Source of the DNA: an uncultured bacterium | Lineage (GTDB): Bacteria; Zixibacteria; MSB-5A5; CAIYYT01 | Assembly: GCA_903930455.1 (NCBI GenBank) | Contig: CAIYYT010000215.1 | Span: forward strand, 1-58,942 | Direction: 5' to 3' | Length of the DNA stretch: 58,942 bases | Shown here: one piece after another, positions 5,767 through 22,785 of the stretch | How positions within the stretch are numbered: the first letter of the stretch is position 1 | Layout of the letters: the number at the start of each line of letters is the position of its first letter | The notes under the pieces: model-generated | Seen by the model: only the letters and a program-made list of their open reading frames with translations | What the model was told of the DNA's origin: nothing | Databases searched by the model: none | Position numbers and translations under genes: made by a program

Positions 5767-5771
5767 GGCGC

Positions 5772-6482
5772 CTACCTCCACTTCCGCAGTTGGGTCATTT
5801 TGACCGCCAGATAAAGGAAGAAGAAGATCATCGAGAAGTAGTAGATCAGATCACGGCTGTCGATCACTCCACGCGAGATATTGCCGTAATGATAGTCGAT
5901 CGATAAATATTCGAAAAATGAAGTGAGCGCGTCGGGTAGAAATGGCAATATCTTGTCGAGCATAAAGAAGGCGAAGATAATCACGAAGCCGACGATGAAC
6001 GCGATGATCTGATTCGGGGAAAGCGAGGAGGTAAAGAGCCCGATCGCCACATAGACCCCCCCCATCAGAATCAACCCCAGGTATCCACCGAACGCAGCGC
6101 CAAAATCGGCGTTGCCCAGCGATGCGATAGTGAGATAGGCAATGAACGTCAGAATGATCGAAAGCGCCGTCAGGGCAAATCCCGCGAGAAACTTGCCGAC
6201 CACTATCTCTTCATCTTTGACCGGCAGCGTCACCAATATCTCAATGGTGCCGGCACGCCGCTCTTCCGCCAACAGACGCATGGTTACCGCCGGAGTAAAG
6301 AGCATCAGGATGAAGCCGGCGATACCGAACAAACTGCGCAGGTCGGCTGAGTTATTCACGAAGAGGGTACTGGAAAAGAAATAGCCGGACACCAGCAAGA
6401 ACAGAGTGATGACGATGTAGGCGACCGGCGAATTGAAATAGGACCGCATTTCGCGGCGGAAAATCGTTATCGCATTATTCAT
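5772..6482 (-). CDS. ABC-2 type permease, GldF-like
   Basis: A 236-residue protein with about six hydrophobic helices. It contains FTPAVTMRLLAEERRAGTIEILVTLPV, whose MRLLAEERRAGTIE core is typical of GldF/NosY-type ABC-2 permeases. Its ATG at 6482 lies inside the end of the ATPase gene (8-base overlap) and has GGGAGGA upstream. It is the membrane partner of the upstream ATPase and the downstream GldG-like protein. Confidence 0.9.
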   Translation of the reverse strand: MNNAITIFRREMRSYFNSPVAYIVITLFLLVSGYFFSSTLFVNNSADLRSLFGIAGFILMLFTPAVTMRLLAEERRAGTIEILVTLPVKDEEIVVGKFLAGFALTALSIILTFIAYLTIASLGNADFGAAFGGYLGLILMGGVYVAIGLFTSSLSPNQIIAFIVGFVIIFAFFMLDKILPFLPDALTSFFEYLSIDYHYGNISRGVIDSRDLIYYFSMIFFFLYLAVKMTQLRKWR

Positions 6483-7413
6483 CGCGTCCTCCCTTTGTCA
6501 GTTTGCGGAAGACGTCTTCCAGACTCGAAACCTCCTGCTTCATCTCGAGAAGCACCCAGCGGTTTTCGACAACCTTGTGGAAGATCGCTTCGCGGGGATC
6601 AAACCCCTGCCGACAGACCAACTCGCAGCGAGTTGTCCCGTTGACCGGATAGGTTTTCAAGTCCTCGACACCGTCAATAGACATCAGGGGGCCACGAACG
6701 GTATCGGGCTGCTGGTTGATCTCGATATTCACAACCGTCTTCCCCGACAGCGAGTGTTGCAACGTCTCAGGCGTGCCATTGGCGACGATCTTGCCTCGGT
6801 CGATAATCATGACCTGGTCGCAGGTCGCTTCAACCTCCGGAAGAATGTGCGTGCAAAGAATGACAGTCTTCTGCCGACCGAGAGCCTTGATTAGGTTCCT
6901 GATTTCAACGATCTGGTTCGGATCGAGACCGACCGTGGGTTCATCCAGCACCAGAATCTCCGGGTTATGAATCATCGCCTGCGCCAGACCAACGCGTTGC
7001 CGGAAACCTTTTGACAACTCGCCGATCCCTCTGGCGATCACTTCCCCAAGTCCACACATCTCAACCACCTGCTTGATGCGCCGTCGGCGTTCGGATTTTG
7101 GTCCGCCCCGCAAGGAGAGGATATATTCGAGATACTCGATCACATCCATGTCCGGATAGAGCGGCGCCGATTCGGGCAAATAACCGATTTTCTTGCGCAC
7201 TTCCATCGATTGCTCGACGACATCGAGTCCGTCAACTGTCACCGTGCCCGAGGTCGGTGGCATATAACAGGTGATGATGCGCACGCTGGTCGTCTTGCCG
7301 GCTCCATTCGGACCCAAAAATCCCAGCACCTGTCCGGTGGGGACCGAGAACGAAATGTCGTCGACAGCGACCGTTTCGCCGTACCGTTTGGTGAGATTCG
7401 TTACTTCAATCAC
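6475..7413 (-). CDS. ABC transporter ATPase, GldA-like
   Basis: A 312-residue ATPase with Walker A GPNGAGKTT, signature LSKGFRQRVGLAQA, Walker B ILVLDEPTVGLD and H-loop CTHILPEVE. A C-terminal extension of about 90 residues is usual in ABC-2 drug or GldA-type ATPases. I prefer a GTG start at 7413, giving VIEVTNLTKRYG; the open frame extends 17 codons further but that part is not family-like. GGAG lies upstream of the GTG. It is the first gene of the four-gene operon ATPase, permease, GldG-like, DUF4340. Confidence 0.9.
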   Translation of the reverse strand: MIEVTNLTKRYGETVAVDDISFSVPTGQVLGFLGPNGAGKTTSVRIITCYMPPTSGTVTVDGLDVVEQSMEVRKKIGYLPESAPLYPDMDVIEYLEYILSLRGGPKSERRRRIKQVVEMCGLGEVIARGIGELSKGFRQRVGLAQAMIHNPEILVLDEPTVGLDPNQIVEIRNLIKALGRQKTVILCTHILPEVEATCDQVMIIDRGKIVANGTPETLQHSLSGKTVVNIEINQQPDTVRGPLMSIDGVEDLKTYPVNGTTRCELVCRQGFDPREAIFHKVVENRWVLLEMKQEVSSLEDVFRKLTKGGRDE

Positions 7414-7588
7414 CTTTGTCCCATCTCCATTTTTATATCGTAGTTTGATTGTGAGTCTAATCAAAACCGCATGACAATGTCAAACCGTTTGCACAGTCCA
7501 CTATCAATTCCAAGTATACATTCAAGACAGCATCAGGTTCCCAAATGTCCGTCGGGTTTCGGCGGAGATTGCCGCCTCAAATGCTCCT

Positions 7589-9346
7589 CTACGACTTCAA
7601 TTGCTTTTGAGCCAGTTCCTGATACAGCGCCGATTTCTCCAGTAACTCCAGATGCGTCCCCTGATCAACAATTTTGCCGTCTTTGAGGGTGATGATGCGG
7701 TCGGCGCGGCGGACCGTTGCCAGCCGATGGGCGATGATTATCGCCGTCTTGTCAGCGAGGATTTTGTCGAGTGCATCCTGTATCAGTTGCTCGGAGATGG
7801 AATCGAGTGCGCTCGTCGCCTCGTCGAGAATCAAGATCGGCGGGTCTTTGAGGATAGCTCGCGCCAGACAGATTCGCTGCCTTTCGCCACCAGACATCGT
7901 TACTCCGCGCTCGCCAACCCTGCTGTTGTATCCGTCCGGCAGGCCCTCAATGAAGTCATGGATGTTGGCGATTCTGGCAGCGCGAATTATCTGCTCTTTG
8001 TCGGCATCCGGATTGGAATAAGCGATGTTCTCGGCGATGGAGGCATTAAACAACAGTGGATCCTGATCAACCAATGCGATATTGTCACGTAATGACGTCA
8101 GCGACAGTTTGCGGAGATCAACACCATCAATGGTGATTGCGCCCCGTTCTGGATCGAAGAAACGCATAACGAGACTGATCAACGTCGTCTTACCGGAGCC
8201 GGATGGCCCCACAATCGCCAGGGTTTCTTTGGCGTGAATCTGCAGATTGAAGTTGTCAAGCCGGAAAGCGTTATCATCATAGCCGAAGGCGACATCGCGT
8301 AGTTCGATCGTGCCATGCGCTCTCGATATAACCGTCGGTTCAGGATCTTCTCTTACTTCCGGTGGAATATCGAGATACTCGAAAACCCGGTTGACGGACG
8401 CCATTGCCACTGAAATCTCGATTCTGGCAAACGCCAATCCTTGCACTGGTGAATAGAGGTAGGCGAGCAGAACATAGAATGCAATCAACGCTCCCAGCTT
8501 CATCGCGCCGGACGCAACCAGATATGCTCCCGCCGACAGCACCACGATTGGGCCGATCATACTAATGAAGGTCACGACGTTGACCGACAGCGACCGGACG
8601 ACGCTGAATCTGACGAGCAATCCAGTAAATCCGCTCAGAATGCCATCTATTCTTCGCCGCTCCAGTCTTTCCCTGCCGAACGCCTTGATAATTTTGATCC
8701 CGACCAATGCCTCTTGCGTCTTGGCGGATAGATCGGCTGTCGTCTCCTGAATCTTGCGAGAAACAATCTGCATACGTTTGCCAAATTTATTGGTAACCCA
8801 AATCGTCAGAGGCACAGGAACGATGGCAATCAGTGTCAGTTGCCAATTTACGTTAAGCAAGTAGATGAGTATCGCGAGCAGCATAAGGACGTTGGTAAGG
8901 AGCATTAGCAGAGTCGAAGTCAACAAGTCCTGAATGCGGGAGACATCGCTCAGCATGCGCGACATGATCTCGCCAACTTGTCGTCGTTGATAGAATTTGA
9001 GGGACAGGTTCTCGAGATGCCAGAACAGCCCCGACCTGATGTCGGCGATGATTCTGGCGCCGATGTAGCCCACCAAGTAGTCGCGTATCCATGACAGGCC
9101 AATTTGGGCCAAGTAAATGCCTATCAGCACAGATCCAAATGTGACGACGGGTCCGAGATTGATACCGTTGGCGGAGACCTTGGCGAGCTTAGGAATTAGC
9201 CCATCAATCAGATACTGAAGTGCAATCGGCAACGCCAACGCCAGTCCTGCCAGACAAGCCATCACCAAGAAGGTTAGTGACTCAAGCCCCCAGTAGGGCT
9301 GCAACAGTTTCCAGAGCCGTTTAGCTTTGTCAGTTTCTAAGATCAT
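7589..9346 (-). CDS. ABC exporter with fused membrane and ATPase domains (MsbA/LmrA type)
   Basis: A 585-residue half-transporter. Six membrane helices fill residues 1-320, followed by an ATPase domain with Walker A GPSGSGKTT, Q-loop VDQDPLLF, signature TMSGGERQRICLARA, Walker B ILILDEATSALD and H-loop IIAHRLATV. The ATG at 9346 has AAAGGGA upstream. It lacks the N-terminal C39 peptidase domain that some RiPP exporters use to cut leaders. It lies 215 bases downstream of two radical SAM genes on the same strand, so I infer that it exports the modified peptide encoded at 12289-12970. A lipid or general exporter role cannot be excluded. Confidence 0.93.
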   Translation of the reverse strand: MILETDKAKRLWKLLQPYWGLESLTFLVMACLAGLALALPIALQYLIDGLIPKLAKVSANGINLGPVVTFGSVLIGIYLAQIGLSWIRDYLVGYIGARIIADIRSGLFWHLENLSLKFYQRRQVGEIMSRMLSDVSRIQDLLTSTLLMLLTNVLMLLAILIYLLNVNWQLTLIAIVPVPLTIWVTNKFGKRMQIVSRKIQETTADLSAKTQEALVGIKIIKAFGRERLERRRIDGILSGFTGLLVRFSVVRSLSVNVVTFISMIGPIVVLSAGAYLVASGAMKLGALIAFYVLLAYLYSPVQGLAFARIEISVAMASVNRVFEYLDIPPEVREDPEPTVISRAHGTIELRDVAFGYDDNAFRLDNFNLQIHAKETLAIVGPSGSGKTTLISLVMRFFDPERGAITIDGVDLRKLSLTSLRDNIALVDQDPLLFNASIAENIAYSNPDADKEQIIRAARIANIHDFIEGLPDGYNSRVGERGVTMSGGERQRICLARAILKDPPILILDEATSALDSISEQLIQDALDKILADKTAIIIAHRLATVRRADRIITLKDGKIVDQGTHLELLEKSALYQELAQKQLKS

Positions 9347-9561: not shown

Positions 9562-10668
9562 CTATTGCGTCGGTGGAGCCTGAAATTGCTTCAGCAATTG
9601 CGTTACTACCTCGGGATCCGGTGGCGCCGGAATTCCCTGTGCTTGCTCGAGTTGATAGATGCAGTACGGGTTGTCCGCCCGACAACCGCTAGCAGAAACA
9701 GATGTTGTCGTGCAGCCGCCACGGCAGAGAGGCAGGTACTTGCATTCATGACAGGCACCGGCAGCCGTTTCTTTCGTAAACTTGCGGTTGTAGGCGAACC
9801 CGTCCGGGTTGTTCCATATCTCTGTCAGAGACTTTTCCCGAATATTCCCTTCGACAAACTCCTCGGGCATTGACAGGCATCCCTTGATGTTGCCGTTTGA
9901 CTCAACGCCCAGGATGCGCATGCCGGCGTAACAGCCGAGATAGGGCGATTCCCCCCACAACTGTGTGCCGAGTTGTCCATAGTAACCGATGTTTTCGCCG
10001 ACGTCGACACGAATTTCGTCGTTTTTCTTTTGAAATTCGAGAATCTTGGTGATCAGTTTCGGGTAGTTATCCAGTGACAGCACCAATTCTCGATTGCCCT
10101 TCATGCGACCGGTTGACGTGCAAAGCTGGATTCGCCACAGGTGACAACCGGCATCGATTAGAGCCTGACGCAAACCATCCAACTCTTCGATATTAATGTT
10201 GGAGACCTGAGAAACGGCACAGTAGCCAAAAGCGTTTCGCTTCGACATCATTCCAATGGCGCCCACTGCCCCAGCGAAGCTTCCCTCCCGCTGGCGAATG
10301 TAATCGTGCGTTTTCTCCATACCATCAATGCTGACGCCAACGGTCACCATCGGGACACTCTCGAAGTCGTCGACAATCTTTTCGGTGATTGCCAGTCCGT
10401 TGGTTACCATCAGCGGTCTCATTCCTCGCGCTCTGATTCTTTTCGCCAGCGTTAACCAATCACTACGCAATAGCGGCTCACCGCCGGAAAGAGTGATATT
10501 GTCGGTACCGAGTTCCGCCAACTCATCAATCAACTTCAATGCTTCGTCCGTTGTCAATTCATCCGGTCTCTTCTTGCCTGCCGAAGTGCCGCAATGAAGA
10601 CAGCGCATACTGCAGGCAAAGGTAGTTTCCCAGACCACCGCCCACGGGAAGAATTTGAACTCGGTCAT
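9562..10668 (-). CDS. Radical SAM/SPASM peptide-modifying enzyme (second maturase)
   Basis: A 368-residue enzyme. The CX3CX2C motif (C19, C23, C26 in TFACSMRCLHC) holds the S-adenosylmethionine-binding 4Fe-4S cluster, and LSGGEPLLR lies near residue 60. The C-terminal SPASM domain has the Cys pattern of auxiliary cluster sites: GNIKGCLSM, then CHECKYLPLCRGGC, then two further Cys. It resembles PqqE/SkfB-type maturases of ribosomal peptides. Its ATG overlaps the stop of the upstream radical SAM gene as ATGA, so the two are translationally coupled. I infer that it works on the two small peptides encoded upstream. Confidence 0.92.
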   Translation of the reverse strand: MTEFKFFPWAVVWETTFACSMRCLHCGTSAGKKRPDELTTDEALKLIDELAELGTDNITLSGGEPLLRSDWLTLAKRIRARGMRPLMVTNGLAITEKIVDDFESVPMVTVGVSIDGMEKTHDYIRQREGSFAGAVGAIGMMSKRNAFGYCAVSQVSNINIEELDGLRQALIDAGCHLWRIQLCTSTGRMKGNRELVLSLDNYPKLITKILEFQKKNDEIRVDVGENIGYYGQLGTQLWGESPYLGCYAGMRILGVESNGNIKGCLSMPEEFVEGNIREKSLTEIWNNPDGFAYNRKFTKETAAGACHECKYLPLCRGGCTTTSVSASGCRADNPYCIYQLEQAQGIPAPPDPEVVTQLLKQFQAPPTQ

Positions 10669-12020
10669 ACTTGCTCCTTAGGTGTCGCTTGAACCTGTTG
10701 CTGCCGTGATCTGGCAATGATCTCCAGCATCGGCGTAAGATTATGTTTCCAACTCTGGCACATCTGCTCGCCAACAAGACCTTGATCAGTGCGCTGAGCC
10801 GGGCAACCGCCCATACATATTGGCAAGATGCTGCAATCCCTGCACATTTCGTCTTCAAAGGGACTGAAGCTGAACAATCGTGTGAAATTCGGGTGCTGAT
10901 AGTTGATCTTGTCACGGACATTTCCCATGGACTTATCGGTATCGCCGACATGATTCCAACAGCGATAGAGAAAACCTTCGGAATCGATCAAAAACGCATT
11001 AACTCGATGCACCATGCAGAAAGTCGCACTCGGTCGAGGCAGTTTCTCGATGCGGAAGCCCTGGTCAAGAAGCAGCCGACAATAGTCAATCTCGACATCC
11101 GAAAAACCGGCATTGTCATAGCAGGTCTCGGCAATGGCGGCACAAGAGATTGACGCCGGCTCCAATTGCGCGAAATACACCGCAACCTTGCCTTGCAGGT
11201 CTGCTTGTTTCAACTCCGCTAGCAATTCGATAATCTCGGCGGCCTCCAAGTTTTTGTCGACATTGACTCTGACCGAGACCATCAGCTTGGTAGCCGCGTA
11301 CTTGAGATTCTCCAAGATTGTCTCGTAGCTCTCCCTGCCATTCTTGAGTGGTCGCTTCTGATTATGCAACCGCGCGGGACCGTCCAGTGTTACTTGACAT
11401 ACCGACACATGGTAGCCAACCAGACGATCGACTACTTCCTTGGTAAGGAGGTACCCATTGGTCACTATTGACGAAGTGTAAGTGAATTGCTTTTCCTCAC
11501 CAAGCCGGATCAGGGATTCGGAAAGCTCACTAATCACGTCCATGGCCAGCAATGGTTCGCCGCCGTACCAGTTGACGTCAACTTGATCCAAGCTCCTGGC
11601 CTGCTTGTCAACAAAACTGACAATGGATTTGATCACCTCGGGGGACATCTTGCCGCGCTTATTGCTCTCGTAACAATATGGGCACGCCATGTTGCAGGCC
11701 ATCGTCGGCGCCAACACCAGACCCAGTTTCGTCATATCATACCTCACCATGCCGTGCTGGAACTTAAGCGCTTCCAATTCGTCAGTATTCTCACGATACA
11801 TGAAGAGTCCGTACTCAAGCTGCTTGAGCAATTCCAGTTCAGGAGGAGTTAGACTAGTGACCGCTTCGCGGCCGTCGTTCGATAGTTTGTCGACAAGTTG
11901 CTGGTAGGTTTGATAGTTGGCTTCGGTCATCAGCGCTACAGCACCAGTGCGCGAATTGAATGCTATATAGTATCCATCATGCCAAGGTTGGAAATGACTA
12001 TATCGAGAGACTCTGCTCAT
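10665..12020 (-). CDS. Radical SAM/SPASM peptide maturase (first maturase)
   Basis: With the ATG at 12020 this is a 451-residue protein. Residues 1-95 (RYSHFQPWHDGYYIAFNSRT and on) look like the N-terminal extension typical of peptide-modifying radical SAM enzymes. The cluster motif is CNMACPYCY (C109, C113, C116), followed by NWYGGEPLLA. The SPASM region has FLYRCW, then CRDCSILPICMGGCPA, then a final C. The frame is open 52 codons upstream to 12176, but a likely promoter at 12183-12211 would start transcription near there, so I favour 12020. It lies downstream of two peptide genes, each closed by its own terminator, and upstream of a second SPASM enzyme and an exporter. Confidence 0.92.
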   Translation of the reverse strand: MSRVSRYSHFQPWHDGYYIAFNSRTGAVALMTEANYQTYQQLVDKLSNDGREAVTSLTPPELELLKQLEYGLFMYRENTDELEALKFQHGMVRYDMTKLGLVLAPTMACNMACPYCYESNKRGKMSPEVIKSIVSFVDKQARSLDQVDVNWYGGEPLLAMDVISELSESLIRLGEEKQFTYTSSIVTNGYLLTKEVVDRLVGYHVSVCQVTLDGPARLHNQKRPLKNGRESYETILENLKYAATKLMVSVRVNVDKNLEAAEIIELLAELKQADLQGKVAVYFAQLEPASISCAAIAETCYDNAGFSDVEIDYCRLLLDQGFRIEKLPRPSATFCMVHRVNAFLIDSEGFLYRCWNHVGDTDKSMGNVRDKINYQHPNFTRLFSFSPFEDEMCRDCSILPICMGGCPAQRTDQGLVGEQMCQSWKHNLTPMLEIIARSRQQQVQATPKEQV

Positions 12021-12211: not shown

Positions 12212-12242
12212 GGCAGTTTTGGTCTGGTTCGCGGTCGACAAC

Positions 12243-12280
12243 GAATATGAAAAAGAAAAGGGAGGACCAAAGTCCTCCCT
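12243..12280 (-). terminator. Rho-independent terminator after peptide gene A
   Basis: On the minus strand a perfect 9-bp stem (AGGGAGGAC/GTCCTCCCT, loop TTTG) begins eight bases after the stop codon of the peptide gene. It is followed by TTTTCTTTTTC. It should limit read-through into the maturase genes, giving more peptide than enzyme. Confidence 0.85.
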
Positions 12281-12288
12281 ACCGCTTA

Positions 12289-12396
12289 CTACACGGCGAC
12301 CGGAGGAACGCCGTACAACGGGACCATTCTAAAGCAGAACTTCAGGATGCAACCGTTGATTGTGCCGGCTTCCTGCGGATCAACTAAATAGATCAT
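12289..12396 (-). CDS. RiPP-type precursor peptide A (35 aa)
   Basis: A 35-codon gene, too short for usual ORF cut-offs. AGGAGG lies just before the ATG at 12396. The peptide begins MIYLVDPQEAGTI, continues NGCILKFCFRMVPLYGVP and ends PVAV. The first 31 residues are identical to those of peptide B encoded at 12863-12970, and only residues 32-34 differ. Two Cys (C16 and C21) lie in a hydrophobic-aromatic core. The gene is upstream of two radical SAM/SPASM maturases and an exporter, and is closed by its own terminator. I infer a ribosomal peptide precursor modified at or near the Cys residues. I do not recognise a named family, and the leader/core boundary is unknown. Confidence 0.85.
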   Translation of the reverse strand: MIYLVDPQEAGTINGCILKFCFRMVPLYGVPPVAV

Positions 12397-12421
12397 TTAG
12401 AGACCTCCTGTGATGGGTTTT

Positions 12422-12475
12422 GGGTCATGCTGATGGGCTTGTGACCCATCCCGTATCAAGGAACTTTTTGATACG
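12422..12475 (-). promoter_or_regulatory. Conserved leader hairpins upstream of peptide gene A
   Basis: Two inverted repeats lie 26-80 bases before the peptide start and are kept in both copies. One is CGTATCAA/TTGATACG around an 8-base loop (12452-12475). The other is GGGTCA/TGACCC around 14 bases (12422-12447). They may be mRNA leader structures or operators. Confidence 0.5.
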
Positions 12476-12715
12476 ACAATATCATTACTTGGGATTATTT
12501 GTACTGTCTTGATGAAGAATGACACACCGTTTCGACACATGCAACACCTACGCTGCAGGTCTCTCGCCGGAGACCACTTGTGATTGACTGAAATGAACCA
12601 TATAATGTGTTTGCGATAATGACCGCCGAGTCAGAACAAACTACTAGTATCAGTTGGAAAGGTAGGTTTTTTTGTGGCAATGTCAAGGAGTACTTGCTTG
12701 CCATCAAAGGCAGTG

Positions 12716-12806
12716 TTATCTAAGACCGACAACGCCTTCCGCGTTAGCACCTTGGGGTAAATGCATTTCGCAGCACAATTGCTTCGGCGAGTCGCTAACG
12801 ATTAGG
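12716..12806 (-). pseudogene. Relic of the hybrid kinase C-terminus
   Basis: This stretch aligns with the last 30 codons of the kinase gene ending at 13287. Relative to TRQQLAEAVKQQMLSPQSAN it reads R-stop-R-L-A-E-A, then needs a one-base shift (CGAA against CAA) to continue with A-N-A-E-G-V-V-G-L. A stop codon and a frameshift in 30 codons show that it is a non-functional passenger of the tandem duplication. Confidence 0.8.
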
Positions 12807-12819
12807 GATCGGCGATGAC

Positions 12820-12854
12820 TCTGAAAATAAAGAGGGAGGACCGAAGTCCTCCCT
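12820..12854 (-). terminator. Rho-independent terminator after peptide gene B (UUCG tetraloop)
   Basis: On the minus strand AGGGAGGAC-TTCG-GTCCTCCCT forms a perfect 9-bp stem with a stable UUCG loop, starting nine bases after the peptide stop and followed by CTTTATTTTC. It is the counterpart of the terminator after peptide gene A. Confidence 0.85.
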
Positions 12855-12862
12855 ACCGGTTT

Positions 12863-12970
12863 TTACACGGTACCCGTCGGGACGCCGTACAATGGGACCA
12901 TTCTGAAGCAGAACTTCAGTATGCAGCCGTTGATTGTGCCGGCTTCCTGCGGATCAACCAAATAGATCAT
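12863..12970 (-). CDS. RiPP-type precursor peptide B (35 aa)
   Basis: A paralogue of the peptide encoded at 12289-12396. AGGAGG lies just before the ATG at 12970. The peptide is 35 residues and identical to peptide A through residue 31 (ending VPLYGVP), then TGTV instead of PVAV. Many codon differences between the copies are synonymous (for example ATC to ATA and GGT to GGC), which points to protein-level selection. C16 and C21 are conserved. It is first in order behind the hybrid kinase and has its own UUCG terminator. I infer the same maturation route as for peptide A: two radical SAM/SPASM enzymes, then export. Confidence 0.85.
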   Translation of the reverse strand: MIYLVDPQEAGTINGCILKFCFRMVPLYGVPTGTV

Positions 12971-12995
12971 TTAGATACCTCCTGTGATGGGTTTT

Positions 12996-13048
12996 GGGTC
13001 ATGCTGATGGGCTTGCGACCCATCCGTATCAAGGGACTTTTTGATACG
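12996..13048 (-). promoter_or_regulatory. Conserved leader hairpins upstream of peptide gene B
   Basis: The same two inverted repeats as in the other copy: CGTATCAA/TTGATACG (13025-13048) and GGGTC/GACCC (12996-13021). Both stems survive even though loop and flanking bases differ between the copies. Confidence 0.5.
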
Positions 13049-13286
13049 ACAATATCATTGCTTGGAGTTATGCGTGCTATTTTGATGAAGAACGACATAC
13101 TATTCTGGCACATACAGCACCTACGCCACAGGTCTCTCGTCTGAGACGACTAATGACCGACTGGAATGAATCGCATGATGTGTTTGCGACAACTACCGCC
13201 GAGTCAGAACAGACCACTATCAGTTGCCAAAGTAGGGGTTTTTTGTGGCTATGTCAAGGAATATTTGATTGCCGTCAAGAGCAGCG

Positions 13287-15893
13287 CTAGCTGAAACCAA
13301 CAACGCTTTCCGGGTTGGCGCTTTGCGGTGAAAGCATTTGCTGTTTGACTGCCTCAGCGAGTTGCTGACGAGTGTAGGGCTTCTTGAGATAGGCTCCGGC
13401 GCCCATGGCCTGCATTTGTGACACACGGTCGGTAGCGGCAAAGCCGCTGACAATTATGGCCTTTTGGCTGGGATTAAGCTTGAGAATCTCGCGATACGTG
13501 TCCAGGCCATCAAAACCTTTCTCCAAGATCATATCGAGGACGAGCAGATCAACCGGGTGCTCAGTGACATAGGCCACAGCTTCCCGACCGTTCGCAGCCG
13601 TCTTGACCTCATAACCAAGACTCACCAGAATCTGTTCGGCGATCTCTCGCTGTTCCGGCACGTCATCGACCACTAAGATGGTGCCGGTGCCTTCGAGATC
13701 GGCGTCCACTGGAGCGGCCGCGATTGTCGCTTCCTGGCTCACAGGGAAATAGAGGAGGAATTCCGTACCTTTCCCAAGTTCAGAGAGGACGTCGTAATGA
13801 CCCTTATGGTCTTTGATGATTCCATAGACAACCGCCAGACCCAGACCACTGCCACTCGCGCCCATTTGCTTATTAGAGTAATATGGCTGGAAGATCTTCT
13901 GGATGTTGTGCGGGTCGATGCCGACACCGGAATCGCGAATGCTCAGGATGGCATAGTCGTCTTCTGTTATTCTGCTGAAATCGCTGTGCAAATGACTGAG
14001 ATGCTCCTGAGATGTCTTGATTGTCAATGTGCCACCATCAGGCATCGCTTCAAAGGCGTTGACTACAAGATTCATAATGGCTTTCATGAGGTGCGATGAC
14101 GATCCCAGTATGTTGCTTACGCTGTCATCCAAGACAGCGGTCACTGTAACTGCGGGATGAGCCATTTGCAGCGACAGACAATTCGACGATTCCAGGTATT
14201 GTCCGATGACATCGTTGATGCTGGTCGGCTTCAACTCGCACCTCCCCCTTCTGGCCAACGCCAGCAAGTCCTGGATCACGTCGGCAGCGTCCTGGGCGGC
14301 CTTGCCCATGATTGTCAATTGTCGGCGATGCGGACTGTCTGGAGGTAGTTTCATCATTATCAGTTCCGGATAGGCAACGAGCGGGCCAAGGATGTTGTTA
14401 AGATCATGCGCCACTCCTCCCGCCAGCAAACCGAGCGATTCCATCTGCTCTGCCTTTTCCAAGCGTCGCTGCAACGCTTCGCGTTGTTCTTCCGCCTGAA
14501 TGCGCAAGGTCACGTCACGTGCTACGCCGACGATTCCGGCAACCTTGCCGTCCTCAAAAAACGGTTGCTCACTTACCTCAAGCATGATCCGCTGCCCTTG
14601 CTTGTGGCACACTTCTGCTTGATATGGCGGGCAGGCCGTTCCCTCGATGAGAGCTTTTTCCGTATACTCAGCGACCTTGGTGTTGATGGGATTGTCTGTC
14701 AGGAATATCGAATAATGTTGCATCCACTCCTCAGGCGTATAGCCGGTGACAGCTTGCACAGACTGCGAGACATAGCGAAAAATCCCGTTGGTATCATGCC
14801 GGTAAATAAAGTCACGCGCATTCTCAAGGAGAACGCGTTGCTCTTCCGCCAAGGCCGAGACCTTGGCAGTTGTTGCCTTCAGTGCTTGCTCAGAGTGCTT
14901 ATGCTCGACGACTTCGTTGATCAGATTGGCATTTTGCACGAAGAAATGGCTGATCAGACGGGCAATCTGGCCGAACTCGCCTGCGGTCGTTTTCAGCTTC
15001 TCAATAGGCGCCGGATCGTCGTCCGTAAGCGCCGTAGAGATTAGTTTAAGCGGGAGGGTAACCCAGCGACGCATCGTAAGAAAGAGAACAAGTATCAGCA
15101 CACAGAGAAAAGCCAGAATCAGCTCTGAACGCGAGGAAACAGCGCGATTGAGCTCCCTCAGGAATTGCGATTCGCTCTCGCAACGAACCACCGCCAGCGG
15201 CTTGTTGCTCAGGTCGAGCAACGTATCGGCGGTGCGTATCTTTCCCTCTGCCCGGTCAGACGCCCACGGTGGCAAGGCATCCAAGTCTAAGATCACGACA
15301 ATCCGGCTCCCCGCAAGACGCGACAGTTCTTCAACGTACTCCGACGACCAGAGTCGCCCCACGAAAAAGAATCCCCGCGGTGGAGACTCTCGTTTGTTGT
15401 CGGAACTCGGTTGGATGGGCGCGCCAAAGATCTCCAAGACGCCGGAAGACGTCCGGACAAAAAAGTGAGGGAAATGGCCGCGTCGAAAGACGACGGCACT
15501 GGAGTCGCGCGAAATCGGTAATGCCAGTCCGCTCAAGCCGGGAGAATCGGAGGCACAATATACGGGAGCAAGATTCGTGTCGCACACCCAGGCAGCCGAG
15601 GCATTAAACGTGTTCAAAGAGACATCGATATTCTCCTTTGCCCAGGCGCTGTCCCGGTCGTTTACGAACTTGACCATGTCATCCCAGAAACTGTAGTCAT
15701 ACGCCAGAGTCTTCGGTGCGTAGCTCTTGAGATCAATGATCTTGTGTAGCAGTTGATTCTTGGCTTGTTCTTGCTCGCCCATGGTCAGGTCGAGGCGGTA
15801 TGTTTCAGAATGGTGCAACGCGGCCATACCTGCCATGAGTACGCAAATCATCACTACCAACAGTAGCGACAAGCGTGTTTGAACATTAATCAA
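13287..15893 (-). CDS. Hybrid sensor histidine kinase/response regulator (CHASE4-PAS-HisKA-HATPase-REC)
   Basis: An 868-residue membrane sensor. TM1 covers about residues 8-27, followed by a CHASE4-like extracytoplasmic domain (YDYSFWDDMVKFVND). TM2 lies near 260, then a PAS domain with PAC tail (about 345-465). The H-box is GGVAHDLNNILGPL, and the ATPase region has DSGVGI and GSGLGLAVVYGI. The C-terminal receiver has VVDD, the phosphoacceptor in LVLDMIL, and KKPY. The start is TTG at 15893, with GAGGA eight bases upstream. The gene lies directly upstream of the two peptide genes, and its 3' end was copied with them. Whether it controls the peptide locus is not shown by the sequence. Confidence 0.93.
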   Translation of the reverse strand: MINVQTRLSLLLVVMICVLMAGMAALHHSETYRLDLTMGEQEQAKNQLLHKIIDLKSYAPKTLAYDYSFWDDMVKFVNDRDSAWAKENIDVSLNTFNASAAWVCDTNLAPVYCASDSPGLSGLALPISRDSSAVVFRRGHFPHFFVRTSSGVLEIFGAPIQPSSDNKRESPPRGFFFVGRLWSSEYVEELSRLAGSRIVVILDLDALPPWASDRAEGKIRTADTLLDLSNKPLAVVRCESESQFLRELNRAVSSRSELILAFLCVLILVLFLTMRRWVTLPLKLISTALTDDDPAPIEKLKTTAGEFGQIARLISHFFVQNANLINEVVEHKHSEQALKATTAKVSALAEEQRVLLENARDFIYRHDTNGIFRYVSQSVQAVTGYTPEEWMQHYSIFLTDNPINTKVAEYTEKALIEGTACPPYQAEVCHKQGQRIMLEVSEQPFFEDGKVAGIVGVARDVTLRIQAEEQREALQRRLEKAEQMESLGLLAGGVAHDLNNILGPLVAYPELIMMKLPPDSPHRRQLTIMGKAAQDAADVIQDLLALARRGRCELKPTSINDVIGQYLESSNCLSLQMAHPAVTVTAVLDDSVSNILGSSSHLMKAIMNLVVNAFEAMPDGGTLTIKTSQEHLSHLHSDFSRITEDDYAILSIRDSGVGIDPHNIQKIFQPYYSNKQMGASGSGLGLAVVYGIIKDHKGHYDVLSELGKGTEFLLYFPVSQEATIAAAPVDADLEGTGTILVVDDVPEQREIAEQILVSLGYEVKTAANGREAVAYVTEHPVDLLVLDMILEKGFDGLDTYREILKLNPSQKAIIVSGFAATDRVSQMQAMGAGAYLKKPYTRQQLAEAVKQQMLSPQSANPESVVGFS

Positions 15894-16099: not shown

Positions 16100-16648
16100 A
16101 AAATGTCAGTCTTATTGTCAGAGAGAAACTTCTAACCAACGCGTTTGTTAGCCAAATGGTTGGCCACTGGATCTGAATAGATGCTTTGTGACTGATTATC
16201 ACGAATTTTACGGAATCTATGGCACAGAATTGGCACAGGGAGCTTTCTGAAAGATAGAACCCGGACTTGGGCCCCAATACGGTTTCATCCCGATAGCACT
16301 CTGAGCGGGTGTTCGAGCATTGATTAAGTCTTTAGTCTCGTTCTGAAGCCACGAAGTATGTCGTCAAACCAATTCAGACACGAAGTGCTGGAAGTTAGTA
16401 TACGGTTTGAGTAGTGGCGAACACTTTTCGGCGGTGTCTCCGCTGAAGGTTGACGTTCGCCTTCGATCTCACTTACAAAGCGCTCTCAGTCCCGAACGAT
16501 CTACCCAAATCGTCTTTTAGCTCAACACCCCTTCTTATCCAGATTTGGCTGACAGCAAACACCTATATCGAATACAGGTAAGGTGAGTATCAACGTTTGA
16601 CGGAGCAATCAAGAAAACATGTGGAGTCATCCATCGACAGCGTCCAAA
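16100..16648. other. Non-coding end of the island
   Basis: About 550 bases without a convincing gene on either strand. Close to the attachment site, a direct repeat TGGCACAGAAT-TGGCACAG (about 16220-16238) could be recombinase arm sites. The rest shows nothing I can name. Confidence 0.5.
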
Positions 16649-17263
16649 TCACACAACTTCAATATTGACCACCTCGCGAATAGGTATATGTCCAAAGCGA
16701 TCATCAACCGACTCATCATTAACTTTCCACTCCTTGTCGTAAACAAGTTTCGGGCTTCTGATTTCGGTGAGTACGTTGTTCTCGCATCCGTTGTGATGGT
16801 AGATCCTGACGCTCTTTTTCAAATGACAGGCAAATCTGACAAGCGCGAGGATGAGCATTTCCTTGATCGGTGACATTTTGCCAGGCGTCGAAATCGCCGT
16901 AAGAGTGTCTGCTAAGAATCCCGGCATTTCACCGGAGATATGCAGTTGGAGTTTCGTGCGCGCCCTGTGTATGGGGTCAAAGCTGTCCGGGGCGAGACTG
17001 CACTCAAGGAACTCAAGGGCAAAAAGAACGGCAGCAGACTCCTCCGGGGAGAGACGCGAATACGAGCCACTTCTGTCCATGAGGCGATACCCCCCCGCCT
17101 CGCCATCAAAATACAGCGGGAAACCCGCCGTTTCGAGTGATCGAACATACCGGTATGCGGTCCGCTCGCTAATATTGCACTCCCTCACCATCGTCTTGAC
17201 ATCAACAGCTCGTCTGTGATGGAGGAGGTTTATGAGCAAAACCAGATTTTCAACTTTTGCCAT
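16649..17263 (-). CDS. HTH/WYL-type transcriptional regulator, short form
   Basis: A 204-residue protein with an N-terminal DeoR-type winged helix-turn-helix (about residues 1-60, ECNISERTAYRYVRSLETAG) and a short C-terminal WYL-like region (KSVRIYHHNGCENN, RSPKLVYDKEWKV, FGHIPIREVVNIEVV). It is shorter than the usual ~310-330 residues and lacks the C-terminal WCX part, so it is either a compact form or truncated. GGAGG precedes the ATG at 17263. A GGGGGAG/CTCCCCC hairpin lies immediately upstream. It follows the exported-peptide gene by 71 bases, so the two may be co-transcribed. The ligand and targets are unknown. Confidence 0.8.
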   Translation of the reverse strand: MAKVENLVLLINLLHHRRAVDVKTMVRECNISERTAYRYVRSLETAGFPLYFDGEAGGYRLMDRSGSYSRLSPEESAAVLFALEFLECSLAPDSFDPIHRARTKLQLHISGEMPGFLADTLTAISTPGKMSPIKEMLILALVRFACHLKKSVRIYHHNGCENNVLTEIRSPKLVYDKEWKVNDESVDDRFGHIPIREVVNIEVV

Positions 17264-17334
17264 ATAGCCTCCGGGGGAGCTTGGGTTCTCCCCCAGTTTG
17301 GTTTGTGGATTAGCAGCCTCTTATCTATTTGAGG

Positions 17335-17586
17335 CTACAGCACAGCACCGAAAAACAAGACCACTACCTCGATCACATCGGATGCCGCCATTTCGCTGTT
17401 CGGTATCACCGCAGTGCGTGTTATGATAGTAGTATCTGCCGAAATGCCTTCTCCGGGGAAAGGTACGCTGCCGCTTCCTTCAGCAAAGGCTGGCACGGAG
17501 ACGATTTGGCCAGACAAAAGCCACACAGTGCAGAGCGCTGTCAGCGCAATCACGATGCGTCGGGCGCGTTGGGAATGCCCTTTCAT
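17335..17586 (-). CDS. Small exported peptide of unknown function
   Basis: An 83-residue protein with a strong AGGAGG site before the ATG at 17586. Residues 1-35 form a Sec signal peptide: a basic start (KGHSQRARR), a hydrophobic core (IVIALTALCTVWLLSG) and a VPAFA cleavage site. The mature part is about 48 residues, Gly/Ser/Thr-rich, ending in a hydrophobic VIEVVVLFFGAVL. No Cys in the mature part and no family that I recognise. It lies between the large kinase/AAA+ regulator and the WYL regulator in the island, with a possible sigma-54-like promoter and inverted repeats upstream. A signal or effector peptide is a guess. Confidence 0.7.
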   Translation of the reverse strand: MKGHSQRARRIVIALTALCTVWLLSGQIVSVPAFAEGSGSVPFPGEGISADTTIITRTAVIPNSEMAASDVIEVVVLFFGAVL

Positions 17587-17639
17587 GGTTCCTCCTATGA
17601 GTTTGGGTCGAGAGCCGACGGTTCACAGGAGAAGTGCAA

Positions 17640-17655
17640 GTCAAGAAGTGTGCCA
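17640..17655 (-). promoter_or_regulatory. Possible sigma-54-like promoter for the exported peptide
   Basis: On the minus strand TGGCAC-ACTTC-TTGAC resembles TGGCAC-N5-TTGCA. The -24 half is perfect, but the -12 GC is GA. Transcription would start about 40 bases before the peptide ATG. A palindrome GTGCCAAAGTTGGCAC overlaps the -24 side. Confidence 0.35.
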
Positions 17656-17747
17656 AAGTTGGCACGCTAGCCTGCCAGATCAGATTCCGTTGTCAGGCAA
17701 TGTGTTAGAGCATTGAGACTCGCTTTCAGATCACTAGGTTTTGCGAG

Positions 17748-17832
17748 CACGCTCACCGTTTTGACGAGCGTGACGGATGTGAGCGGTGAACCTGTTGGTC
17801 TACCTCGGGATAGAATTCACCGAAATGGTGAA
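17748..17832. promoter_or_regulatory. Cluster of inverted repeats, candidate activator sites
   Basis: CACGCTC/GAGCGTG (17748-17754 and 17766-17772, 11-base spacer) and TTCACC/GGTGAA (17816-17821 and 17827-17832, 5-base spacer) are perfect dyads. The TCACCG core also occurs at 17753-17758 and inverted at 17784-17789. They lie about 100-190 bases upstream of the possible promoter of the exported peptide, the usual distance for enhancer-binding activators. Confidence 0.4.
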
Positions 17833-17874
17833 CAATTTGAGTTGGGGAGAGTGCGGTTATACGGGTTGTGTCGG

Positions 17875-20800
17875 CTAATCGTTTCGAGAGTCTCTTACAA
17901 TGCCGTATTGTTTGATCCGTCGCTGTAGAGTTGTGTACGACAGATTGAGGGCGCGAGCGACGGCCGACTGGTTCCAATCGAAATCGTTGAGGAGTTCCGT
18001 GATACGGGCTTTCTCACTCTGCGATCCCTTGGCTCGGAGAGTGGTTCGAGCCGAATCTCGAGATCTCAATCCTGCAACCTCAGTTGGCAGCATTTCAATA
18101 TCGATTGATCCATACTGATGTAGGATACACATCTTTTCGACCACATTTCGAAGTTCTCTCACATTGCCAGGCCACGAATAGGCAGTCAATATTTCCAGCG
18201 CCGATCCGGTAAACCGGAGAGCACGGTTTGGCGCAAGAGTGGAGACAAAGTGTTCAATAAGTAACTCAACATCTTCGGGTCGGTCTCGCAAGGGTGGCAG
18301 GATTATCTCGATAGTATTAATTCGATAGTACAAGTCGGAACGAAAACTATGGTTGCTGATCAACTTGTTTAATTCCTTGTTTGTCGCCGCCACAAAGCGA
18401 ACGTCTACCGTTTCCGGAACATTACTACCCACCATTTCGAACTGCTTAGTCTCAATCACCCGCAGCAATTTTGCCTGTGTCGCAAGTGGCATATCGCCGA
18501 TCTCATCGAGGAACAGGGTACCACCGTCAGCAGAATGGAGTCTCCCCTCACGGCGAGCAACTCCCGTGGCCACACCCTTCTCGATGCCGAAGAGCTCGCT
18601 GTCCAGAAGCTCACCGTCAAGTGTAGCGCAGTTGACGCTCACCAGAGGGCCATCACGGTAGGGACTATACTGATGAATCATAGTAGCGAGGATTTCTTTG
18701 CCAGTGCCACTCTCGCCTCTAAGCAGGATCGCTGCGTCTGAGTTTGCGATGATCGGCAGTTTTTCAAGAATATCCTTCATCTCCCTGTTGCGGGTAATTA
18801 ATATTGTTCCTGACCCACGAGCGGCCAGCGTCTTGACTGCTTCGTTTTTTTGCCTCTGGAGCAGATCCAGCGTGCGGGCGTGCGCAAAGGCGACCGCGAT
18901 GAAGTTCGCCACAGACTGTATCAACTCCCTCTCATCAATGCCGAATAGACCGGGCAAGCTGTGATGATCGAGATAGAGCACTCCGATGAGTCTGTCCTGG
19001 GATACGAGCGGCACACAGGCTATCGACAGGATATTATGCACGACAACACTCTTGTAAGATTTTGTCGTTTCGTCCCTCAGCGCATCTTCGACAAACATAC
19101 CTCTGCGGCGATCATACACCGATTGGATGACGCTCTTGCTCAGATTGATGATGTCGCTAAGGCTCTCATGGTCACAGTCAATGGCCGCTTCCACCCGCAA
19201 GTTCTTACCGCCTTCGGTGGAAAGCAGGATCGCTCCCCGTTCGGCACTCGTCTCATCCAGCGCAAGGCGCAGCAATTGCTGCGCTGTTGATTTGTAATCA
19301 GACACGGTATTGAGCAATGATGAAACGTGATGGAAAGCGACATACTTGGAGCGATAAGAGTCCGTCGACGTCGTCAGCCGAGCAAGAGAAGCCTCAATCT
19401 CGCTTGCTATGTCGGGATTAGGGAGCAACTTCGCTAGACGAAGCGCTTCGAGCAGGAATCTCAGGCGAAGACCGGTTTGCTTCGTCGCTTCGTAATATTT
19501 CTCAATCTGAAGCGAGGTATACAGTGCATGGAAGTAGAGACCAACACGCGAATACCTACGGAAGGATTCTTTCAGTCGGGAGCTATCGACACGAATGGAG
19601 CTTTCTTCCGTGCTGTCGAAAGCATGAATGTGACTATAGACTGCCTCAGCAAAAACAGCTGCTGATTCAGTCAGATGTTTTCGCAACAGCTCCGACTCCG
19701 CCACAACACTCTTGACCTCCTCAGAGTAACCGGAGAAAAGAAGCAATGCGATACAGGAGCAGGCTCCAAAGAAATTGCCGCAGCCAATGTATTCCTTGGT
19801 CAACTCGACGCAGGATTCCGGGTCGACCTTCCGTTTTCGCACGAAATCCAGGCATTCGCGTAGCTGTCGAGAATCAAGTAAGTGCACACGATCTTGCGCG
19901 TCTTGAGATATTTTCTCTGCGCGGGATCGCAGGCTTGCCGACAAATCGGCTTTGCCTTGCCAACAATACAGCGTTCCCAGGTAAAGCAGGGATTTGCCCA
20001 GGAGCCAAGGTATGGAAACCGACTCAAAAACAGCGGTCGCATATCGAAGTCCAAACTCTGCTTCACGATATCTTCCTCGGCGAAGGTTCAGCCAGCCCAT
20101 ATTCAGATGATACAAGCCGATGGCTCCGCGGTCGCCGCGTGTTCGAGACACTTCCAAGTAATTGGCGATCGCTCGTTCCGCCTTTTCATATTCTCCGATG
20201 AGCACATAACACGAAAAGAGACTCGCCTCCATAAATGCCCCGCGAGCAATACCACTGCTCGCACAATTGAGCTTTTTCGCTGATGAATGGAATTCTATTG
20301 CTTCCTTGTACTCTCCGCGATCAAAGGAAACCAATCCAAGGTTTGCATAAAGTGGGACCAGACGATCACTATCGACGTACTCAGCACAGTCGCGAATAGC
20401 TGTTTCAAGCACCTCACGAGCATTATTTAGGTTGCCCAGCGTCCACTCGATGCAACCCAAAGCGTTCTGAACAATGAGCTCATGAGTAGCAAGTTTGTGA
20501 TCTTTGGCAATCCTGGCAAGAACTCGGAAGCCCCGTAAGGCGGACCGCGATCGACCTTTTCGATACACAGTCCACAACTGTCTCTCCAACACTTTCAATC
20601 GCAGGTGTAGTATGTCATTCGCTGTGGCAATAGCGTAGGCTCCCTTAAGGAATCGATCATGCTCTTCCTGATCCTTATCTATGGCGTACAAGTCTGCCTG
20701 CTGAAGGTGCACATGGATCTGCTTGGTTGGCGACAAGTGGTTCGAGGCCAAAGCCCGTATGAAATCCTGTCGCGCATCTGCCACAAAACCCGAGAGCCGA

Positions 20801-22119
20801 CAACACTCCCCGAGTCGCACGTAAAGCGAAGCTCGATTCTTTGCCGAAATTTCGTCAGAATCGCTTTCGAGCAATCGTTTCAGCAGGATAGCGGCTTTGA
20901 GAAACCGTCCCTTGGCTTTCAGCTTCAGAGCTGTGCGGGCAATCTGTACACAAGATATCGCAGGTTGTGATGCTGTATTCGGCGATGCAGCACCATCTAT
21001 CCGAGCATACAACTCTTCGATGTCACCCAGCGAGGGAGAAACATAGAAGTGGTCAGCGTAACGCTCAACGGAAGTCTCTGACACAACCTTGCGAGCAACT
21101 CTATACTTGTCAGAATGCGACATAAGGCTTGTCGCTTCAAAGTCATTCGCCAGCTCGAGCGGAATGCCCAGAAGCTTGACATCATGTGTCAAAAATTGCA
21201 GAAGACCTTTGTGTGATCCATTCGTCTCCTTCTGCCACATGTAGTAACGGGTCCTAATCACGTGCCAAAGTAAGTGATTCTCGTAGCGGGAAGCATCTAT
21301 CGCAAGCTGGCTTCCGTGTTCGCGAAGTAGGTGACCGAGATTCGCCGGCCGTTCAACATGATGGTAATGTGACAGAGAGTTGACAATGGGCACCAAACCT
21401 CCCATTTGGCGACACAAGTCGTCCCGGGTTACCTGGAGCTCCTGATGACTTCCGTCGGCCACGTTTCTTAACTGCACTTCGAGCTTAGACGGACTATTGT
21501 GTGACATGAGAAGCAGCATAACACCGAGAGAGTAGTGGTCTGACTGCGGAAGCACTATCTCGTTTCGCAGAATCTCGGGAGCTATATGCAGAGGCGAACC
21601 GAATACCAGACCCTCTGGCTGCATGCCACTTGCGGTAAGAAGATCAAAGTCTGAAAGCAGGACTCTGTGCGTTTCGCCCCGGCACAAAATCCGGAAATTG
21701 TCCTTTTTCAGGTCGCAATGAACATACCCCATGCAGTGGATGAAATCTACGGCTGAGAATATCTGGAGTAGGAGTTCTTGGTAGTTGCGCCGGAACATCT
21801 CAGTATCGAGATCAACACTTTCAGAAACGTACGGATACACAACATTGTACATTCCGTCCCGTTCAAACCCGCTGATCGGAGAAAGTACGTTCGGATGTCT
21901 AAAGTGACAGGCACTCTCAAAACTGTGCTTCAGGATGCGGCCACAATCGTCCTGGGACATCGACGAACCTTCTGCTGGCCTTTTGACCAGAACTTTCCGC
22001 CTTAGTCTCCGATCAAACCCGACGAATGACTCAAATAGATTGCCTGTGGCGATTCTTGTTTGAAGCTCGAATCGTTCAGCAGAATTATAGGCATCCAAGG
22101 AAGGCTCCGCGGCTCTCAA
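17875..22119 (-). CDS. Giant Ser/Thr kinase-TPR-GAF-AAA+-Fis transcriptional regulator
   Basis: A 1414-residue fusion. Residues 15-290 form a Hanks-type kinase-like domain with Lys in VLVKRP, catalytic loop HCDLKKDN (134-141) and DFD in place of DFG (157-159). The Gly-rich loop is poor, so kinase activity is uncertain. TPR-type helices follow (about 390-900), then a GAF domain (about 940-1090). An AAA+ domain has Walker A GESGTGKE (from 1135), GGTLFLDEIGD and YSWPGNVRELRNVV. A C-terminal Fis-type helix-turn-helix (DFDWNQSAVARALNLSYTTL) ends the protein. The sigma-54 contact loop GAFTGA is GVATGV (1182-1187). The start is uncertain: TTG at 22119, or TTG at 22098 with GGAG upstream. Confidence 0.9.
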   Translation of the reverse strand: MRAAEPSLDAYNSAERFELQTRIATGNLFESFVGFDRRLRRKVLVKRPAEGSSMSQDDCGRILKHSFESACHFRHPNVLSPISGFERDGMYNVVYPYVSESVDLDTEMFRRNYQELLLQIFSAVDFIHCMGYVHCDLKKDNFRILCRGETHRVLLSDFDLLTASGMQPEGLVFGSPLHIAPEILRNEIVLPQSDHYSLGVMLLLMSHNSPSKLEVQLRNVADGSHQELQVTRDDLCRQMGGLVPIVNSLSHYHHVERPANLGHLLREHGSQLAIDASRYENHLLWHVIRTRYYMWQKETNGSHKGLLQFLTHDVKLLGIPLELANDFEATSLMSHSDKYRVARKVVSETSVERYADHFYVSPSLGDIEELYARIDGAASPNTASQPAISCVQIARTALKLKAKGRFLKAAILLKRLLESDSDEISAKNRASLYVRLGECCRLSGFVADARQDFIRALASNHLSPTKQIHVHLQQADLYAIDKDQEEHDRFLKGAYAIATANDILHLRLKVLERQLWTVYRKGRSRSALRGFRVLARIAKDHKLATHELIVQNALGCIEWTLGNLNNAREVLETAIRDCAEYVDSDRLVPLYANLGLVSFDRGEYKEAIEFHSSAKKLNCASSGIARGAFMEASLFSCYVLIGEYEKAERAIANYLEVSRTRGDRGAIGLYHLNMGWLNLRRGRYREAEFGLRYATAVFESVSIPWLLGKSLLYLGTLYCWQGKADLSASLRSRAEKISQDAQDRVHLLDSRQLRECLDFVRKRKVDPESCVELTKEYIGCGNFFGACSCIALLLFSGYSEEVKSVVAESELLRKHLTESAAVFAEAVYSHIHAFDSTEESSIRVDSSRLKESFRRYSRVGLYFHALYTSLQIEKYYEATKQTGLRLRFLLEALRLAKLLPNPDIASEIEASLARLTTSTDSYRSKYVAFHHVSSLLNTVSDYKSTAQQLLRLALDETSAERGAILLSTEGGKNLRVEAAIDCDHESLSDIINLSKSVIQSVYDRRRGMFVEDALRDETTKSYKSVVVHNILSIACVPLVSQDRLIGVLYLDHHSLPGLFGIDERELIQSVANFIAVAFAHARTLDLLQRQKNEAVKTLAARGSGTILITRNREMKDILEKLPIIANSDAAILLRGESGTGKEILATMIHQYSPYRDGPLVSVNCATLDGELLDSELFGIEKGVATGVARREGRLHSADGGTLFLDEIGDMPLATQAKLLRVIETKQFEMVGSNVPETVDVRFVAATNKELNKLISNHSFRSDLYYRINTIEIILPPLRDRPEDVELLIEHFVSTLAPNRALRFTGSALEILTAYSWPGNVRELRNVVEKMCILHQYGSIDIEMLPTEVAGLRSRDSARTTLRAKGSQSEKARITELLNDFDWNQSAVARALNLSYTTLQRRIKQYGIVRDSRND

Positions 22120-22341
22120 TTGTCATCTGTCGTTAAGATACACTTATATTTCCAAATGACAAGTGCTGCCGGGCTTTGCGCATAGCCCAGAGGTTGGTGG
22201 AACGAATCTATTCAGTTTAGACAAGTCTCATGTCTAACAATTGATCATGCAACCCCTTATATCAACAACAAACCCGCGATTCCCTGCGTCTCCAATTGAC
22301 CTTAGTTGACCACGCAATTCCTGAGCGCTGGCAAAGCTACC

Positions 22342-22785
22342 TTACTTAATATCGATCTTCCCGATTGACTTCTTCAAATGCTCCTGCGTTTGATGAGTAG
22401 TCATCATCGTTGTCTCGATATCCTTGTGACCAAGGAGCTTACCCATTGTTGCAGGATCAACTCCATTCATTTGCATCAACGAATTAGACGTGCGACGCAG
22501 GTCATGAACACGTGTAAGGTCTCTGAAAAGCCTGCCGTTCTTGCCACTTCAACAGTGCATCTCTCAGAGAGTCATTGTCCAATTGGCACCCTTCTTCATC
22601 ACAAACACATATGTACCATCATCCTTGAGCTTTGCGATAACATCAAGAGCGGTTTGGTTTAGGAAGAACTCTTTCGAACAACTCATGGGAGTCCAGCCCT
22701 CCCTCGGTCGAATCTTGAGTAGACCAGTTCTTAGATCAACATTGCGGATTGTGTGAATCTGATCAAGGTGGTCCAGTACCGTGTG
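22342..22785 (-). pseudogene. Tyrosine recombinase (integrase) remnant
   Basis: The minus strand encodes a recombinase catalytic domain in pieces. VDLRTGLLKIRPREGWTP is followed by VIAKLKDDGTYVFVMKKGANWT, then a +1 shift to NDSLRDALLKWQERQAFQRP, then a return to HDLRRTSNSLMQMNGVDPAT and LGHKDIETTMMTTH. The HxxR motif and LGHK are kept. The N-terminal half with the first catalytic Arg is missing, and the catalytic Tyr (normally in RYTH) reads TTH. The gene lies next to tRNA-Leu, its presumed target. Confidence 0.88.

Follow-up and report, generated by a model that had tools for sequence, protein, structure and literature searches.

Two tandem 35-codon genes under purifying selection beside a radical SAM/SPASM cassette in an uncultured Zixibacteria bacterium

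Introduction

Annotation usually misses genes of only 35 codons, or leaves them in doubt. Contig CAIYYT010000215.1 (assembly GCA_903930455.1, an uncultured Zixibacteria bacterium), analyzed here as one window of 58,942 nt, raises the question of whether two such frames, lying in tandem between a hybrid histidine kinase gene and a radical S-adenosylmethionine (SAM) gene, are genuine genes, and what they would serve. Their duplication supplies an internal neutral control, consisting of spacer DNA and of a kinase fragment carried as a passenger, showing that so short a frame is a gene. Our comparison of the copies demonstrates purifying selection on the peptide frame and on its 5' leader; the kinase-tail passenger, by contrast, is a remnant free of constraint.

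Results and Discussion

Selection on the duplicated peptide frame

The two units are direct copies on the minus strand, as are the genes, leaders, hairpins and kinase fragment of the system placed below, and have 88, 81 and 77% identity across 224, 196 and 111 nt. Chance is ruled out as the source of this likeness, since blastn of one unit against the other gives E = 9e-139 across 561 nt. They are the only copies of the peptide unit in the genome, and they start 571-574 bp apart, so that the unit length of about 545 bp given in the initial annotation was slightly short. The distal unit (12804..13374) opens in the intact 3' end of the kinase gene (stop at 13287) and carries a precursor peptide gene of 35 amino acids at 12863..12970 (MIYLVDPQEAGTINGCILKFCFRMVPLYGVPTGTV, ending GVPTGTV). 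The proximal unit (12230..12803, boundaries within a few bases) carries the other 35-residue gene at 12289..12396 (MIYLVDPQEAGTINGCILKFCFRMVPLYGVPPVAV, ending GVPPVAV). Each gene has an ATG and an AGGAGG ribosome-binding site, and the two peptides agree, as first reported, at 32 of 35 residues. The passenger at 12716..12803 is a broken copy of the kinase end, interrupted by a TAG (12795-12797) and shifted by one inserted base at 12769. The stop and the shift had been described correctly; the fragment comprises about 28 codons rather than about 30, and it opens the proximal unit, preceding the peptide copy nearest the radical SAM gene.

The codon-position pattern carries the argument. Between the two copies, codons 1-31 have undergone seven synonymous changes, all at third positions, and no non-synonymous change. 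First and second positions are constrained, because 0 of 62 have changed as compared with 55 of 246 spacer sites (Fisher P=1.4e-6), whereas third positions (7/31) have changed at the spacer rate (P=1). In simulations of neutral change, the absence of non-synonymous changes from codons 1-31 had a probability of about 5e-5 to 1e-4, and the result for the full 35 codons had P of 0.002-0.005. The passenger differs at 25 of 88 sites, spread over the codon positions as 7/29, 6/29 and 12/30, in addition to its stop and frameshift. Thus, the alignment does not give equal divergence for peptide frame and passenger, and non-synonymous changes are not in excess in the peptide; the purifying selection proposed in the initial annotation is upheld, together with its remark that many codon changes are synonymous (7 of the 10 codon differences).

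All three amino-acid changes are confined to residues 32-34, C-terminal to a conserved PLYGVP motif and outside the conserved part of the peptide. They arose in the proximal copy, since the sister species (genome G001, a metagenome-assembled genome, or MAG) has TGT there, its tail being the TGTV of the distal peptide; across the whole precursor family, the region after PLYGVP varies in length and sequence.

Could the copies be alike through recent gene conversion rather than selection? Tandem repeats often convert, and the sister copy appears intermediate between both window copies. Nevertheless, peptide third positions have diverged as far as the spacer, which argues against recent conversion, and a runs test for mosaic structure in the sister copy was not significant (P=0.06-0.12); we regard this explanation as extremely improbable. 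Because the passenger decayed while the peptide was kept, and because relatives hold dozens of such peptides next to the same modifying enzymes, the 35-codon frames are real genes.

The 5' leader

Conservation extends upstream of the frame. The leaders (12971..13040 for the distal gene, within a two-hairpin region at 12967-13050 where the 5' arm of hairpin 1 starts at 13048; 12397..12467 for the proximal gene, with the same elements in a two-hairpin region at 12393-12477) differ at only 3 of the 70 positions preceding the ATG (P=2e-4 against the spacer), on par with the first and second codon positions. The predicted hairpins are CGTATCA..TGATACG and GATGGG/CCCATC; a second copy of CCCATC adjoins the AGGAGG, and in folding predictions alternative pairings compete. 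Such a leader with two competing 3' arms, one of them beside the ribosome-binding site, is a possible translational switch or protein-binding site.

In G002 and G004, two further species of this taxonomic family, hairpin 1 likewise lies 5' of the precursor, and the G002 genome has no other match to it. Its loop spacing varies, which is easier to reconcile with an RNA than with a DNA operator. In G004 the second hairpin, judged by eye, reads GTGAG/CTCAC, with two compensating changes; the automatic alignment of five leader sequences, in which part of G002 was misplaced, gave an unfavorable covariation term. No leader of this kind was seen in more distant families, and an Rfam search of the region returned no match near the gathering score.

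As the leader is as conserved as the constrained codon positions and its hairpins recur in two other species, the conserved blocks might be taken for a regulatory RNA or DNA element in which the open frame is incidental. However, each frame has its own ribosome-binding site, the protein family is kept across families with unrelated DNA leaders, and the restriction of all seven changes in codons 1-31 to third positions largely refutes such a reading, which we consider highly improbable next to selection on an encoded peptide. Each precursor is also followed by a terminator-like hairpin with a T-rich tail (12833..12854 for the distal peptide and 12259..12280 for the proximal one). A promoter scan of the region did not find a minus-strand site.

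Age of the duplication

In the sister species (locus L022 on contig C333), a single peptide lies between an intact kinase end and the first radical SAM gene, rSAM1. The window copies are 82.4% alike to each other, and 87.5 and 86.5% alike to the sister's copy; the spacers of the two copies have diverged by 22%, and fourfold-site divergence to the sister is 0.14-0.23 (rSAM1, rSAM2 and the exporter gene). Since the copies are further apart than either is from the sister, and since spacer divergence equals or exceeds fourfold-site divergence, the duplication dates from roughly the time of the species split, or from before it. A recent one-step duplication after the split is disfavored by these values.

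The kinase fragment may mark a breakpoint of the duplication. Alternatively, whole kinase and peptide may both have stood in tandem duplicate in an ancestor, the second kinase being trimmed to its tail by a later deletion in this lineage. Spacer divergence as large as fourfold-site divergence (14-23%) would fit such a history, as would a run of six states in which the fragment agrees with the sister and not with the intact tail in the window. In addition, two kinase sequences are present in G001; they differ by 14% where they overlap (213 nt) and break near the same codons. One lies beside the peptide on C333, and the other, on contig C109 (L074), stops inside the gene at the contig end and carries the flank found further upstream in the window. 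However, G001 is fragmented (720 contigs) and 5% contaminated, and the two kinases may therefore come from different strains; the sister's peptide unit is not clearly closer to either window copy. Thus, G001 has either a tandem kinase, perhaps with a second, unassembled peptide, or a MAG that mixes strains. We hold the remnant history to be possible but somewhat doubtful; it is compatible with the frames being precursor genes, and the history of the fragment leaves the argument for selection on the peptide unaffected.

A precursor family and its cassette

The initial annotation also finds independent support in the precursor family itself. We searched 133 Zixibacteria genomes with the peptide and then with a 35-member alignment, and found the family (general pattern MIYLIDP...C...C...PLYGVP) in 37 of them, with 1-8 matches each; arrays of 2-8 copies are common. 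In the family alignment, M1, P7, P26 and Y28 are invariant, and L4, D6, C16, C21 and G29 nearly so. rSAM1 (421 amino acids matched) occurs in 39 of the 133 genomes and is shared with 36 of the 37 precursor genomes (Fisher P=8e-28). Close named matches (over 50% identity) come from Candidatus Zixiibacteriota / GN15 MAGs, one FCB-group MAG, one unclassified bacterium and one MAG labeled Ignavibacterium; the last label is probably wrong, the gene layout matching that of G116:C17 from the Zixibacteria phylum. Pfam gave only chance matches on the precursors, and none of the library families searched covers the window peptides. Within the open-licence literature, we found no paper describing the Zixibacteria family, Zixibacteria radical SAM peptides, Clo7bot or TIGR04333. 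Not covered by the searched libraries and present in over a quarter of the Zixibacteria genomes sampled, the family, with its two or three radical SAM enzymes, is a defined target for new peptide chemistry.

The short conserved precursor genes adjoin a radical SAM/SPASM maturase, and in many loci the gene order is kept: precursors, rSAM1, rSAM2, an optional B12-binding radical SAM protein and an ATP-binding cassette (ABC) exporter. In the window, these are rSAM1 (10665..12020, 451 amino acids), the second radical SAM/SPASM protein rSAM2 (9562..10668) and an MsbA-like exporter (7589..9346) that is 57-65% identical to those in relatives' cassettes. rSAM1 has a CX3CX2C motif and a seven-cysteine SPASM pattern, with cysteines invariant in 13-14 homologues. 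Its N-terminus is predicted to be beta-beta-beta-beta-alpha-alpha-beta-alpha, resembling the recognition element (RRE) of enzymes that make ribosomally synthesized and post-translationally modified peptides (RiPPs), a comparison made only within the full-length model.

Based on these results, we consider it quite probable that a short RiPP precursor gene, present in tandem duplicate, accounts for both frames, with MIYLV/IDP recognition, radical SAM thioether chemistry, export and kinase control; judged from sequence, this is most likely a lineage-specific thioether-type RiPP system. How the leader is recognized, how the core is modified and cleaved, and what the kinase does are inferred. The constant N-terminal MIYLV/IDP strand would serve for recognition by the predicted RRE-like N-terminal domain of rSAM1. 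With the help of rSAM2, this enzyme would then build thioether cross-links starting from core residues Cys16 and Cys21 (of the sacti- or ranthipeptide type), and the ABC exporter would carry the product out. The terminator 3' of each precursor probably holds precursor mRNA above enzyme mRNA. Arrays of precursors may be common because extra copies would raise the dose and let the core tail vary.

The kinase (13287..15893, 868 amino acids, CHASE4-PAS-HisKA-HATPase-REC) would sense a signal from outside the cell, which may be the product, and control the cassette. It lies upstream of the cassette in the window, and at L034 in G116 a kinase with the same CHASE4 architecture (44% identity) lies downstream in convergent orientation; related kinases occur within about 6 kb of the cassette in G118 (L025), G124 and G128. 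The remaining kinases of the window's genome resemble it at only about 30%, but similar kinases are present elsewhere in the phylum without the cassette. The association between kinase and cassette is suggestive only.

Several points weigh against the proposed thioether system. The window peptide has two cysteines, and a few relatives have one. Confidence in the rSAM1 model is moderate (mean predicted local distance difference test score 80, lower in the SPASM region). Because the exporter lacks a C39 peptidase domain and the conserved cassette contains no protease, maturation by cleavage is unexplained. Finally, the kinase is linked to the cassette in few lineages.

The same cassette could instead make a peptide-derived cofactor or signal rather than a secreted, cross-linked bacteriocin. 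The leader peptide is short, the PLYGVP end is highly constant, no immunity gene was recognized in the conserved cassette, and the sensor kinase recurs as a neighbor. Several diverging cores per genome and a dedicated exporter nevertheless suit secreted, varied products better, and we find the cofactor or signal reading rather unlikely. More speculative still, and improbable in our estimation, would be a new class of Zixibacteria peptides in which two SPASM enzymes, often with a B12-dependent one, act on a PLYGVP-ended core, the CHASE4 kinase senses the product and, in the window's family, the two-hairpin leader controls each precursor mRNA; if true, this would be a peptide signaling system in an uncultured phylum.

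Relatives show variations on the cassette. At L026, which has two rSAM1 genes, variant-core precursors at 1730-2198 and 4035-4181 (one TCCTPQGCYLY..., the other long and Cys-rich) suggest core diversification. In many relatives, a further radical SAM protein, this one carrying a B12-binding domain, is inserted between rSAM2 and the exporter, as at L034 (10366-11796), L025 (10373-11806), L068, L069, L072, L024 and L028, and not in the window; a third modification in these relatives is possible.

Relation to known systems

Among maturase families, rSAM1 scores best against TIGR04334 of Clo7bot, at 337.2 bits (cut-off 600), and second best against the RiPP maturase TIGR04463, at 293 bits (cut-off 525); the precursor family of the TIGR04463 system gave no match. 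Two of the 35 precursors align weakly to the Clo7bot precursor family TIGR04333 (cut-off 31 bits), and the one checked does so from residue 1 over its first 24 residues, at 17.8 bits; the window peptides themselves do not match TIGR04333. An NCBIfam Clo7bot search of the window's own genome gave nothing over the cut-off, and 12 of 14 control genomes gave a signal as well. Short cysteine-containing peptides beside one radical SAM/SPASM enzyme are common to both systems, whereas the C-terminal PLYGVP marks the Zixibacteria set; the second radical SAM enzyme and the MsbA-like transporter were seen here, Clo7bot loci not having been compared for them. Clo7bot is a distant relative, and we file the system in the window as a radical SAM/SPASM RiPP variant, not as Clo7bot.

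By fold, the best matches of the rSAM1 model are the structures of CteB (5WHY and 5WGG), a maturase of the thioether-forming SCIFF/ranthipeptide type, nearly over the full length; identity is 18%, and 5WGG is also the best PDB sequence match. Both structures come from a paper on thioether formation in sactipeptides. SCIFF precursors have six cysteines in about forty-five residues, unlike the window peptide, which is unrelated in sequence and matches no SCIFF family; against the SCIFF maturase family TIGR03974, rSAM1 scores 95.8 bits (cut-off 425). Thuricin CD, described in PMC12093266 as a two-component sactibiotic whose two radical SAM enzymes serve a two-component product, is similar in pairing two such enzymes with paired related precursors. 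It differs in that the rSAM2 of the window belongs to a different subfamily and has a putative role.

Neighboring genes

Two neighboring regions were also noted. Genes resembling the ABC-2 transporter GldA/GldF/GldG, with a DUF4340 gene, follow 3' of the cassette in the same direction (3254-7464) and were not seen beside relatives' cassettes. We left the GldAFG-like genes (4180-7464) out of the system, as tblastn in relatives' loci gave only generic ATPase matches. On the other side, about 6.7 kb between the kinase and the next homologous flank upstream (16100-22785) is absent from sister contig C109; it includes a 1414-amino-acid protein (Ser/Thr kinase, TPR, GAF, sigma-54 activator and Fis-type helix-turn-helix domains) and a 204-amino-acid helix-turn-helix regulator.

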